From: Chloroflexota bacterium
GTDB taxonomy: Bacteria; Chloroflexota; Limnocylindria; P2-11E; CF-107
NCBI GenBank assembly: GCA_005881435.1
Contig: VBHP01000006.1
Span: 1 to 62,690, forward strand
Direction of reading: 5' to 3'
Length of the DNA stretch: 62,690 nt
Made by a program: the position numbers and the translations under genes. Below are positions 1 through 10,284 of this stretch, piece after piece. The first letter of the stretch is position 1, and each line of letters opens with the position of its first letter. The notes beneath the pieces are model-generated. The model saw only the letters and a list, made by a program, of their open reading frames with translations, searched no databases and was not told the origin of the DNA.

Positions 1-2
1 TC

Positions 3-1577
3 TGCGGCGGGCGGGGTGATGCGCGTCAGCCTGGCGACGGCACTGTCGGATTCATCCAGGACAACGACAAGACGTTGAACGGCAGCGTCCCGGGGTTCGA
101 CAAAGAGTGGATCACGGCTGGGCCGCGGCCGGGCGGCGTCACGGCCACGTGCTTCGCGCCCATCTCGCATACGCCGAGTGCCTGCCCCGCGGCAGTAACC
201 GGCAGCGATCGGCTCTACGTTACCTATTCGCTGTTCTCCGGCGCCGGCAGCGCGCAGATCTTTTTCAGCTACTCCGACGACCAGGCCCGTTCCTGGTCCC
301 CCGCGAAATACATCGCGGGCAGCGGATCCTTCTGCGCGCCGGGTGGCCGCGCCGGCGATAGCTGCGCCGACAGCCAGGGCTCGCAGCCGACGGTCAATCC
401 GACGACCGGCCAGCTATGGGTCGGCTTCATCAACGGCGACACCACCGATGAGGACCAGTACCTGGTCGTCACCTCGACCGACGGCGGCAACACGTTCTCG
501 GCTCCCTCGCGTGTGGACACGCTCTACGACGTCAACGAGCCGCGCGGCGTCAACGGCCGCACGGACTGCACCGCGCGCGGACAGGGTTCGACGCGGACCG
601 ACCTCACCAACACGTGCTTCCGCGCCGACCCGATCTTCAACTCCATCGTCGCCGACAAACGTGGCGGCGAGTTTGCCAAGAGTGTGTACGTCGTGCTGTA
701 TGACAATCGCAACGGCACGATCCGGAACTCCAACAACGACCTGTTCTTCTACAAGTCAACCGATGGCGGTACGACGTGGATCGGACCCACGCGCGTGAAC
801 AACGACCCGTCGCAGACGCCGGCGAACCGCGACTGCGGCCGCAACCCGAACAGCATCCGCGGCAACGCCGCCGTCTGCCCCGCGACCGGTACGGGAAATG
901 ATCAGTTCTTCCCGTTCGTCACGATCAGCAACGACGGCGTGCTGAACGTCACGTTCCACGATCGGCGCCTCGACACGTCGTCTCCGATCGGGTCCGGCGA
1001 GTGGCCGACGAGCAAGACCGCCGTCGGCAACTACTTGGTGTGGTACTGGGGCGCGCAATGCAAGATCACCTCAGCGCCGACGGTGACGGCCACCACTTCA
1101 GGCCCCGTGCCAGAGAATGCGGCGCAGTGCGTCGCGCCCGAGGCTGTGGTGAACCCGTCGGTGGCGACCGGTTTCAACCCCGGCGCTGGACCGGTGCCCG
1201 GCAACGGTCAGAACTCCGCGACTCTGCCGTTTGGGAATTTCCAGATCTCTGACGTTGGATCCAACTTCGACTACTCGTTCCGCGCCGGCATCTTCGCCGG
1301 CGACTACAGCGGCAACAGCGCGGGACCGACCGTCGGTGGCGGATCACGGGGCAACGAGGCCATGGCGGTGTGGACCGACGCGAGGAACGGCCGCGGCTCG
1401 GGCGGTCCGACCAACTTGCAGCCGGGTCGCAACCCGATCTGCGAGCAGTCCGACGTGTTCTTCCAGACCTACAACTCGCAAAATGGCGGGAACGGGTCGA
1501 AGGGCAATGTCGACGCGAGCACGTTCTTGTCGGCGCCATGTCCTGCCGACATCAAGGACAAGGGCAACAAGGACTGA
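3..1577 (+). CDS. Asp-box (BNR/sialidase-fold) beta-propeller protein, 5'-truncated by window edge
   Basis: The reading frame is open to the first base, so the gene begins upstream and about 525 C-terminal residues are visible. At least three Asp-box motifs of the type S-x-D-x-G-x-T-W/F are present (YSDDQARSW, STDGGNTF, STDGGTTW), each followed by a short SAP/GPTRV-like strand. This is the pattern of BNR/sialidase-fold propellers. Several paired cysteines and a Gly/Asn-rich composition suggest an exported protein, but the signal peptide lies outside the window. No sialidase catalytic set could be assigned, so an enzymatic role is not claimed. A hairpin follows the stop. A generic exo-alpha-sialidase-like label is the most that can be supported. 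Confidence 0.75.
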   Translation, partial: CGGRGDARQPGDGTVGFIQDNDKTLNGSVPGFDKEWITAGPRPGGVTATCFAPISHTPSACPAAVTGSDRLYVTYSLFSGAGSAQIFFSYSDDQARSWSPAKYIAGSGSFCAPGGRAGDSCADSQGSQPTVNPTTGQLWVGFINGDTTDEDQYLVVTSTDGGNTFSAPSRVDTLYDVNEPRGVNGRTDCTARGQGSTRTDLTNTCFRADPIFNSIVADKRGGEFAKSVYVVLYDNRNGTIRNSNNDLFFYKSTDGGTTWIGPTRVNNDPSQTPANRDCGRNPNSIRGNAAVCPATGTGNDQFFPFVTISNDGVLNVTFHDRRLDTSSPIGSGEWPTSKTAVGNYLVWYWGAQCKITSAPTVTATTSGPVPENAAQCVAPEAVVNPSVATGFNPGAGPVPGNGQNSATLPFGNFQISDVGSNFDYSFRAGIFAGDYSGNSAGPTVGGGSRGNEAMAVWTDARNGRGSGGPTNLQPGRNPICEQSDVFFQTYNSQNGGNGSKGNVDASTFLSAPCPADIKDKGNKD

Positions 1578-8055: not shown

Positions 8056-8435
8056 TATTCGGCGTACGAGCGGTCGCGCGTCACGAATTCGCGCATCAGC
8101 CGCTCCCGCTCCGCACCGATCGTCGTCCGCGCGCGGACCCGTCTGGCTTCGCCACCGATCTGGATCTCGGCGAGGGGATGGGCCTGGAGATTCAGGTACC
8201 AGCTCGGATGTCGATCGTCGCCGGCGTTCGACGCCACGACCACCGGATCGCCGTCATCGTCGACGTAGCTGAGCATCACGCCGACCGGTCGACCCGAGCG
8301 CCGACCGGTCGTCGTCAGCAGCAGCGTGCGAAAGCGTCCGAGCCGCGCACCGAGACGGCCGCCTGAGAGCCGGAACGCAGTCCGGTGCAGACGCCACAGC
8401 AAAGCCAGCCCTCGACCGCGGCGCGGGACCACCAC
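7992..8435 (-). CDS. deazaflavin (F420)-dependent nitroreductase family protein (DDN-like)
   Basis: A 147-residue split-barrel protein with the DDN family signature: LLLTTTGRRSGRPV, then VVVASNAGDDRHPSWYLNL and AHPLAEIQIGGEA. Members bind F420 and reduce quinones or nitro compounds. The GTG at 8435 is chosen (GTG at 8432 is equivalent) because upstream residues are not conserved and the divergent methyltransferase starts at 8457. The C-terminal coding end overlaps the converging glycosylase gene by 64 bases. The exact substrate is unknown. Confidence 0.8.
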   Translation of the reverse strand: MVVPRRGRGLALLWRLHRTAFRLSGGRLGARLGRFRTLLLTTTGRRSGRPVGVMLSYVDDDGDPVVVASNAGDDRHPSWYLNLQAHPLAEIQIGGEARRVRARTTIGAERERLMREFVTRDRSYAEYQRRTARPLPVVVLELPDTAA

Positions 8436-8456
8436 GACAGGTGGAATCCTAGGCGC

Positions 8457-8978
8457 ATGGATCACGCTGACCACGTCGCTCTCCTGCGCGATGCGATCGG
8501 TCCGGGGAAGTGGGCCGACCTCGGATCCGGCGAAGGCGCCTTCACGCTCGCGCTCGCGGACCTGCTCGGAGAGCGCGGCTCGATCTATTCGGTGGACAAA
8601 GACCGCTGGGCCCTCGACGCGCAGGAGCAGCGCATGCGGCGCCGCTTCCCGACGGCGCACATCGAGTACCGCGTCGCGGACTTCATCAGACCGTTGAGCC
8701 TGCCCGTCCTCGACGGCATCGTCATGGCGAACTCGCTGCACTTCGTGAGGGATAAGCTGCCGCTGCTACAGCGGTTGCGCGACATGCTCGCGCCGGACGG
8801 CCGTTTCGTGCTGGTCGAGTACGACGCCGACCGGGGCAACATGTGGGTGCCGCATCCGCTCTCCATCGCGACCTGGCGCGACCTTGCCGCGCGGGCCGGT
8901 CTGCGTGAGACGCGCGAACTGCACGCGGTGCCGAGCCGTTTCCTGGGCCGGATCTACTCCGCGCTCAGCCTCGCGTGA
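8457..8978 (+). CDS. class I SAM-dependent methyltransferase
   Basis: A 173-residue Rossmann-fold methyltransferase. Motif I is WADLGSGEGAFTLALA (about residues 19-34), motif II places an acidic residue at the ribose-binding site (YSVDKD), and the post-I and motif IV region contains GIVMANSLHFV. The C-terminal part (GRFVLVEYD) matches motif V/VI of small-molecule methyltransferases. The acceptor cannot be predicted. It starts 21 bases from the divergent DDN gene and its last 25 bases overlap the converging Hint-lipoprotein gene. Confidence 0.8.
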   Translation: MDHADHVALLRDAIGPGKWADLGSGEGAFTLALADLLGERGSIYSVDKDRWALDAQEQRMRRRFPTAHIEYRVADFIRPLSLPVLDGIVMANSLHFVRDKLPLLQRLRDMLAPDGRFVLVEYDADRGNMWVPHPLSIATWRDLAARAGLRETRELHAVPSRFLGRIYSALSLA

Positions 8979-9847
8979 AACAGCGAGCTGCGCAGCAGCA
9001 CGCCGTTGGCCCAATAGGCGCCGGTCGTTCCGGCGGGCAGCACGTCGTGCGTCTGGCCACGGTACGGCTCGCGCGCGACGGACATGATGGTCGCGCCGTC
9101 GAGCACATCTCCGACCCGTAGCTCCCCCACCGTCCGGCCATCGAGCAGCGGGTGTCCGGGTGAGACTTGCAGCACACGGCCATCGCCCAGCGCTAGCACG
9201 ACGATCTCGTGCCCTGCGGGCGCGGACATCGAGCCGACGTCGAGCACCGGCGCGGCGACGCGCGCTCCGTTCGCGTCGACGGTCCACACCAGGTCGCCGA
9301 CCCGCAGCGCGGTCACGAGTCGGTCGCCCGCCGGCGTGGCGATGCGAACGCCGTCGGCAAGACAGATCGGACAGTTCGGCGGCCCGGCCTCGACGCGATT
9401 CAATACGGTGACCTGGCCATCCAGCGTGACGCGTCCCTCGACGAGGAAACCGGTCTTGTCCGCGGCGGCCGCCATCACGCGATAGTTCTGGAAGCCGTAC
9501 GCCTGATCGTTCACGCGGTTGAGTGCCAATGCGTTCAGCTGCTTCCACTCGCGATAGACCGCGAGCTTCTGGTCATCCGTCGTTGCCGCGGCGAGGCCGA
9601 GGCGCGTGAGGATCACCGGATAGGTCTGGAGATCCTTCTGCACATCGGGGAAGCGCTGGACGGCGATGTCCTTCTCGTCGGCCCGCGCGATGGGATAGAA
9701 GTCGGGATCGCAGTACCACGGGCGGCCGACCTGGTCGAAGACGCGGTACTTCAGCTCTGGGACGGAGAGCGGTGGCCCGGGCGGGAGCGCGGCCTGAGCA
9801 CAGCCGAGGACAAAGAGCGCCAGCAGCAGCGCCGACCCTCTCCTCAT
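8954..9847 (-). CDS. lipoprotein with C-terminal Hint (intein/hedgehog-type) domain
   Basis: A 297-residue exported lipoprotein. The signal peptide ends in a perfect lipobox (FVLGC, Cys16). Residues 25-155 form an unrecognised domain. From Cys162 the sequence is a Hint domain: CLADGVRIATPAG at the N-terminal splice block, LRVGDLVWTVD, the block B-like SPGHPL, and a C-terminal YWANGVLLRSS that mirrors the usual ANGVLVHN end. The usual C-terminal His-Asn is replaced by Arg-Ser, so cleavage or cholesterolysis-like autoprocessing rather than splicing is expected, if active. The ATG at 9847 is chosen over the longer open frame because only it yields a signal peptide. Confidence 0.75.
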   Translation of the reverse strand: MRRGSALLLALFVLGCAQAALPPGPPLSVPELKYRVFDQVGRPWYCDPDFYPIARADEKDIAVQRFPDVQKDLQTYPVILTRLGLAAATTDDQKLAVYREWKQLNALALNRVNDQAYGFQNYRVMAAAADKTGFLVEGRVTLDGQVTVLNRVEAGPPNCPICLADGVRIATPAGDRLVTALRVGDLVWTVDANGARVAAPVLDVGSMSAPAGHEIVVLALGDGRVLQVSPGHPLLDGRTVGELRVGDVLDGATIMSVAREPYRGQTHDVLPAGTTGAYWANGVLLRSSLFHARLSAE

Positions 9848-9885: not shown

Positions 9886-10284
9886 CTAGGCCGCGCGCTC
9901 GACGGTGACCGCGGTGCCGTACGCCAACACCTCGGTGACGCCGCCCATGAGCTCGGTGGCGTCGTCGAACCCCTATCACCGCGTTGGCTCCCATCTCATT
10001 CGCGTGCGCACCATCCAAAATCGACTCTGATTTCGGGTCCACTGGACGATTTTGGATGGTGCGTGCGCCACCATCAGGTCGTACGCCTCCTTGCGGGACT
10101 GCTCGCAGAGCTCGGTGAACAGCGTGATGTTCCCGCCGACGATGGTCTGCAGCGCACCGCCGAGGGAGCCGACGATGCTGCGCGATCGCACGGTGATGCC
10201 GCGGACCAGGCCCAGGTAGCGCGTGATCCGATAGCCCTGGAAGTCGAACCCGGTCGTGATGAGGTCGTGCGTCAGCGTCGCCAT
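9886..10284 (-). pseudogene. ybjQ: ybjQ-family (heavy-metal-binding domain) gene interrupted by a 51-bp insertion
   Basis: The N-terminal part (MATLTHDLITTGFDFQGYRI ... SIVGSLGGALQTIVGG) and, in other frames, the C-terminal part (NEMGANAVIG, then DDATELMGGVTEVLAYGTAV) belong to the YbjQ/DUF74 family of about 105 residues. A 51-bp element with an 8-bp target duplication is inserted after MVAHA, shifting the frame and leading to stops at about 9976. A second lesion, apparently a loss of about 5 bases near 9965-9972, shifts the frame again. The intact product is not made as one polypeptide unless a frameshift occurs. Confidence 0.85.
10010..10060. mobile_element. 51-bp MITE-like element with 14-bp terminal inverted repeats
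   Basis: The ends ACCATCCAAAATCG (10010-10023) and 10047-10060 are perfect inverted repeats. The element is flanked on both sides by the direct repeat GCGTGCGC (10002-10009 and 10061-10068), an 8-bp target-site duplication. Removing the element and one repeat restores the YbjQ reading frame across the junction (VAHA-NEMGANAV). It has no coding capacity and would need a transposase in trans. I did not notice a second copy in this window. Confidence 0.8.

Follow-up and report, generated by a model that had tools for sequence, protein, structure and literature searches.

A family of Chloroflexota surface lipoproteins with a C-terminal Hint domain that probably cleaves itself without splicing

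Several described systems provide a backdrop for the Hint protein reported here. The C-terminal motif is missing from B-type BILs, which cleave at their N-terminal side, as set out in the relevant part of PMC7765530. In the portion of PMC3482391 that deals with it, PT-HINT is the Hint autopeptidase of polymorphic toxins, and Burglin (2008) recognized, in the corresponding passages of PMC2362128, a group of secreted bacterial proteins with a C-terminal Hint (MXAN_6253 and others) that was termed "yet another subgroup". The roles of blocks B and F in the N-S acyl shift are described in part of PMC10663303. The family considered below belongs to the Hint superfamily and is like the B-type BILs in missing the C-terminal motif. 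The member studied here is encoded in the window, i.e. the whole stretch of 62,690 nucleotides of Chloroflexota DNA that was analysed, and has the following features (basis in brackets):

8954..9847, minus strand: whole gene for a lipoprotein with a C-terminal Hint domain, 297 amino acids plus stop (translation, relatives)
9800..9847, minus strand: signal peptide, residues 1-15, and lipobox Cys16, FVLGC (translation, lipobox rule)
9365..9766, minus strand: N-domain, residues 28-161 (model, profile and fold searches)
9710..9712, minus strand: Cys46 in the CDPDFYP motif, with a proposed disulfide to Cys159 (paired variation)
9371..9373, minus strand: Cys159, position -3 of the cut site, CPI/C with the slash at the cut (alignment rows)
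8978..9364, minus strand: Hint domain, residues 162-290 (Hint_2 match, structure)
9362..9364, minus strand: Cys162, Hint residue 1, proposed nucleophile of the N-S acyl shift (101/101 rows)
9152..9163, minus strand: block B, Ser229-Pro-Gly-His232, with SxxH replacing TxxH (101/101 rows)
9044..9046, minus strand: Asp268 of block F (100/100 rows with a letter there)
8984..8989, minus strand: Ser287-Ser288, at the places of the intein terminal Asn and +1 nucleophile (structural alignments, rows)

Judged by its relatives, the reading frame at 8954-9847 is a real gene and not a chance one, because such relatives occur across the order and the class and all 30 aligned members match Hint_2. It is present in one copy in the window's genome. 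Its start codon is not certain, since the frame is open upstream and a strong ribosome-binding site was not seen; with the ATG at 9847 as the start, the signal is that of a normal lipoprotein. In the resulting 297-residue translation one can recognize the motifs VLGC16, C162-L-A-D-G, S229-P-G-H232, T266-H-D268 and, near the end, YWANGVLLRSS. The preliminary description had the Hint domain ending in ANGVLLRSS; this motif does lie near the end, but nine further residues (LFHARLSAE) come after RSS, which is therefore not the literal C-terminus. Its broader picture, a lipobox lipoprotein with an N-terminal domain matching no family and a C-terminal Hint from Cys162, agrees with the translation, the Hint_2 match and the Pfam-negative N-domain. 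The lipobox rule is satisfied by 66/82 family members as against 37/3373 control ORFs, from which it follows that most of the family is predicted to be exported and anchored by lipid. Among the 16 members that fail the rule, inspection reveals a lipobox in about ten, and two others (L161 and L080) seem to be anchored in the membrane.

The Hint lipoprotein is an old family. Relatives with about 40-60% identity are encoded by 21 of the 29 genomes of the order and 44 of the 177 genomes of the class, both counts including the window's own. In a draw of 400 genomes from the phylum, a profile of the N-domain found the family in 48, and a full-length profile at E 1e-3 reached 69, a figure with other Hints in it. 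An alignment scan of genome contigs returned 88 loci, 80 of which were kept, mostly from MAGs named Chloroflexi; a pattern scan of the contigs with the single protein found nothing, and a search of plasmids, phages and viral contigs gave no relatives. Rfam had no match in the window and NCBIfam none in the whole protein. No published description of the family was found in the literature searched, a body of work to which most subscription papers do not belong. The genome G348 encodes two copies of the lipoprotein (L147 and L146), and the L147 copy lacks the Cys46/Cys159 pair.

The same Hint also occurs behind other N-terminal regions in MAGs labelled Sungbacteria, Zambryskibacteria, Peregrinibacteria, Micrarchaeota, Thaumarchaeota, Nannocystaceae and Myxococcales, some of which labels may reflect binning errors. 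Going by these sequences, MAGs labelled Patescibacteria, Myxococcota and archaea have the Hint module attached to unrelated exported domains, which may make it a general means of surface-protein processing. A set of such proteins with other N-terminal regions (L095, L097, L103, L098, L100, L101 and L105), from MAGs labelled Patescibacteria, unclassified bacteria and Micrarchaeota, have a Cys of their own shortly before CPxC, which may point to a disulfide of this kind in another domain.

Pfam Hint_2 (PF13403) matches residues 161-236 of the window protein at E 1.2e-7 (32.7 bits, cut-off 28.4) and is matched by 30/30 aligned members and by 37/37 members (E up to 0.1 in each set). TIGR01445, the intein N-terminal region, is matched by 28 of these 37, and among the matches listed for them there is no intein C-terminal model. 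The Hint alignment itself (A3) has 37 rows, with L020 omitted and L001 entered as the window stretch. A total of 168 Hint matches was reduced to 101 distinct rows by dropping duplicates and matches below 80 bits; the N-domain is present in 82 of these and has no match in the other 19, two of which (L020 and L109) are contig-end fragments. The nine weak matches L162-L170 are other Hints. L164 (from 1747 onward, genome G010) is a separate intein-like Hint in a different protein and also has a Cys at -3 of Cys1 (CPG/C).

Cys162, Ser229 and His232 are invariant in 101/101 distinct rows, the count for Cys162, like that for Cys159, leaning upward because part of the rows came through a scan that used CPICLA as one of its three patterns; Asp268 is kept in 100/100 rows with a letter at that position. 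The conservation of Cys162 and His232, on which the preliminary description had made its reading depend, is thus borne out. These sequences are 40-59% identical to the Hint of the window protein. In the 30 rows of alignment A1, which were gathered without a motif filter, Cys46, Cys159 and Cys162 are all present and the C-P-I-C geometry is invariant. At the level of the residues compared, the invariance of the Hint residues shows constraint, not turnover. The family has Ser229 in place of the usual Thr of block B, and position -1 is beta-branched in 98/101 rows (Ile in 95, Val in 3).

At the other end of the domain, the terminal His-Asn is found in 0/100 rows, as the preliminary description had noted for the single protein. 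The Asn position (residue 287) is Ser in 97 and Thr in 3 of the 100 rows, and the +1 position (residue 288) is Thr in 96 and Ser in 4, Ser-Thr being the combination in most relatives. Residue 286 is free to vary (entropy 2.05 bits) while 287 and 288 are fixed as Ser/Thr (0.19 and 0.24 bits). Nine of nine further members from a Myxococcota search also keep [ST][ST], whereas other, low-scoring Hints in that search have HN in 14 of 20 distinct ORFs as counted by eye, the remaining 6 running past the printed stretch, being truncated or carrying an insert; hence the Ser-Thr tail marks a clean subgroup. Very little follows the Hint, with a median of 3 residues across the family and 8 after residue 289 in the window protein.

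The structure prediction suggested at the outset was run with AlphaFold2. The whole-protein model has a pLDDT of 88 and a pTM of 0.63, on account of which the orientation of the Hint relative to the N-domain is not firm. The Hint part is predicted to be a horseshoe Hint fold, with structural matches at Z about 17 that include BIL2, DnaB, RecA and Hedgehog: structural alignment gave Z 16.6-17.6 to inteins and BIL2 (rmsd 1.5-1.8 in most) and Z 17.2 to Hedgehog 1at0. In the RecA intein, positions 1..440 correspond to residues 162..287, and in the GyrA intein positions 0..198 correspond to 161..287; residue 287 therefore occupies the place of the terminal Asn.

The N-domain modelled alone (pLDDT 94.4, pTM 0.87) comprises four helices followed by four strands, i.e. 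an alpha/beta arrangement over residues 28-161. In its alignment (A2) 67 of 81 usable N-domains were included, and a Pfam search with these 67 members recovered no family, with weak matches to one to three members each and a best E of 0.011. PDB sequences gave nothing below E 0.2 and Foldseek nothing at E 0.001 or better. The best VIA-align scores were Z 4.0 and 3.7 to cystatin/NTF2-like folds; such a fold was set aside, as these values are below the trusted level, and we do not claim a new fold. Among 49 matches in the 400 genomes the N-domain was never found without Hint, save at one contig end and one frame break, and in the latter case a Hint is on the same contig.

The cysteines at positions 46 and 159 are kept or lost together, with Cys/Cys in 79 and Val/Tyr in 3 of 82 rows, which suggests a disulfide between them beside the cut site. 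A single-residue strand pairing near residue 43, present in both models, weakly agrees with such a bond. The three Val/Tyr rows form one clade (support 0.893) and so represent a single concerted loss.

Clustering of ORFs at 89 loci yielded, among the clusters listed and besides the family itself, no partner that is also at the window. Two further large clusters at the 89 loci were taken as shadow frames of the family. Lineage clusters, which we read as ABC-transporter ATPase, sugar-phosphate transferase and ATP-synthase subunits, extend over at least 19, 12 and about 9 loci, respectively, and the smaller neighbour clusters look like local synteny. In the window, a convergent ORF at 8385-8978, which we take to be a SAM methyltransferase, has an end that overlaps the 3' end of the Hint gene by 25 bases (8954-8978). 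At 10008-10062 a 16-base inverted repeat with a 23-base spacer, found in one copy in the genome, lies inside a minus-strand reading frame that is presumably YbjQ-like; this frame shifts at or near the repeat and again downstream, and the gene therefore looks broken or misassembled.

By its predicted export signal and lipobox, its invariant Hint catalytic residues and its lack of a splicing end, the window protein is probably a surface lipoprotein that cleaves itself without splicing. Following export, lipidation and folding, the Hint would strain the Ile161-Cys162 bond, and Cys162, aided by Ser229 and His232 of block B and Asp268 of block F, would carry out an N-S acyl shift to give a thioester. 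We infer the steps beyond this point. A branched ester may form next, by transfer of the acyl group from the thioester to the hydroxyl of residue 288 (or 287). The lost Asn is the residue whose cyclisation would resolve such a branch; because it is absent, splicing would not follow, and water or another nucleophile would resolve the acyl bond. The lipid-anchored N-domain would be left ending in ...Cys-Pro-Ile, as a free acid or an adduct, with the 136-residue Hint shed and with the stretch immediately ahead of the cut pinned to the N-domain by the Cys46-Cys159 disulfide. The preliminary description had expected a chemistry that halts at the (thio)ester, with which the loss of the terminal Asn is consistent; its proposal that the N-domain is released appears unlikely, because the N-domain carries the lipid anchor and the Hint would be the part shed. 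It did not mention the Thr/Ser kept at +1 throughout, the joint variation of Cys46 and Cys159, the other exported proteins that bear the Hint module, or the tie of the N-domain to the Hint. We count against self-cleavage the Ser for Thr in block B and the beta-branched Ile at -1, which would slow the wanted cleavage too, and against the disulfide detail the fact that the two cysteines were lost in a single event, confined to one clade.

If this core is right, hydrolysis would be slightly favoured as the fate of the acyl bond, transfer to a cell-surface molecule would be a lesser though substantial prospect, and a lasting ester would have a slim chance. By intein precedent, a Pro-Ile ahead of the cut would slow plain hydrolysis. 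The Ile or Val at -1 in 98/101 rows hints at a thioester that is slow to hydrolyse, and the conserved Pro-Ile thereby leaves room for a directed acceptor. We consider it possible, if on the unlikely side, that the Hint passes the N-domain thioester to a fixed surface acceptor (wall, glycan, lipid or protein amine), so that the lipoprotein would be anchored by its two ends; this would be a bacterial analogue of Hedgehog, whose ligand is lipidated twice, and a counterpart of sortase that acts in cis. An N-terminal lipid with a C-terminal Hint lacking HN is the Hedgehog layout, in the terms of the relevant part of PMC7765530, and along with the beta-branched -1 position the occurrence of the module at the ends of unrelated exported proteins is what one would expect if it were a general tag for C-terminal processing. 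However, an acceptor-binding region is absent, the median 3 residues after the Hint standing against the sterol recognition region of Hedgehog. Asp46 of Hedgehog activates the sterol, and its place falls on Ser206. Furthermore, a neighbour gene conserved family-wide was not found among the clusters listed. A hopanoid as the acyl acceptor is disfavoured by the distribution of hopene cyclase: strong matches, defined as E below 1e-60, a cut on which the zero rests, occur in 0/48 carriers versus 60/352 others (60/400 genomes), with a Fisher p of 0.0004 that ignores shared ancestry and retains lineage bias, and weak matches reaching E 1e-3 or better are seen in nine of the carriers. Cross-linking of the N-domain, the other possibility raised in the preliminary description, is possible, but an acceptor was not found. 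A rather unlikely generalization is that the Ser-Thr-tailed Hint is a portable self-acting anchoring module that joins the C-terminus of exported proteins to a surface acceptor. If true, it would be present in Chloroflexota, Patescibacteria, Myxococcota and some archaea, doing the job of sortase in cis and leaving the lipoprotein anchored, like Hedgehog, by its two ends.

We regard as doubtful the proposal that the Hint is gated by redox state, with a Cys159-Cys162 disulfide blocking the acyl shift until reduced as in the Pyrococcus abyssi MoaA intein. C-P-I-C is invariant in the 30 members collected without a motif filter, and the structural matches of the Hint include 3nzm, a redox-trapped intein; a disulfide trap between an N-extein Cys and Cys1 has been published for the MoaA intein (part of PMC10663303). 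On the other hand, in 3/82 rows Cys159 is lost with Cys46 while Cys162 stays, so that Cys46 looks like the partner of Cys159 and a 46-159 disulfide is favoured over a 159-162 trap. The Myxococcota search also recovered members that retain Cys1, SxxH and the block F Asp without having Cys -3, and hence Cys -3 is not needed for the Hint itself. Similarly improbable is an inert Hint that merely caps the lipoprotein structurally without cutting: the loss of the terminal His-Asn in all rows and the block B Thr to Ser change would fit it, but Cys162, His232 and Asp268 are all invariant, which is unexpected in a dead domain, and Ser/Thr stays fixed at 287 and 288 while 286 drifts. A branched lipoprotein in which the side chain of 288 (or 287) receives the N-domain and keeps it as an ester is very unlikely, despite the Ser/Thr at +1 in 100/100 rows and 9/9 further members and its alignment with the place after the intein terminal Asn, given that, according to a published review (the part of PMC4031507 concerned), such ester branches form reversibly and frequently end in cleavage, and that Ser-Thr could instead be a structural strand cap.

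Self-cleavage without splicing, if the domain is active, would be a widespread way for surface proteins to mature in phyla that have received little study, by a Hint that has kept the +1 hydroxyl and lost the splicing Asn. It makes testable the old question of what becomes of the thioester in natural C-terminal Hint domains outside animals, and the family could provide new cleavage or ligation tools.

Set against class 1 inteins, the family lacks His-Asn and a C-extein to ligate and has the +1 Ser/Thr. With B-type BILs, compared by description and not by reference sequences, it shares the intein N-terminal motifs and the missing C-terminal His-Asn, for which N-terminal cleavage is expected (relevant part of PMC7765530); it differs in having its Hint always at the C-terminal end of a lipoprotein, where Cys1 is preceded by CPI and the Asn and +1 places are taken by Ser/Thr and Thr/Ser, respectively. 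Like the PT-HINT domains, in the account of them in PMC3482391, it is a probable Hint autopeptidase in exported proteins, but PT-HINT precedes a C-terminal toxin domain, whereas almost nothing follows the Hint here. The MoaA intein of P. abyssi likewise has a cysteine in its N-flank that is able to reach Cys1; our family has no splicing end, and its upstream Cys varies together with Cys46 rather than Cys1. The Hedgehog Hog proteins offer a closer parallel in layout, having an exported, lipid-modified N-domain followed by a C-terminal non-splicing Hint whose fold matches at Z 17.2 to 1at0. Nevertheless, the family has no sterol recognition region after the Hint and no equivalent of Asp46, the profile position 45 being Ser206 (read from the 6tyy D46H chain), and accordingly two defining Hedgehog features fail; the N-domain is also unrelated in sequence searches and the carriers lack a strong hopene cyclase match. 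The group of Burglin (2008), in the passages of PMC2362128 concerned, has a C-terminal Hint, some signal peptides and two conserved upstream cysteines, and a C-terminal Hint, an export signal and two conserved upstream cysteines are together present in our case for the family with the N-domain only. The listed members of that group are from Myxococcus, Stigmatella, Reinekea and gammaproteobacteria, and, compared by description only, it may be the same wider group as the family described here.
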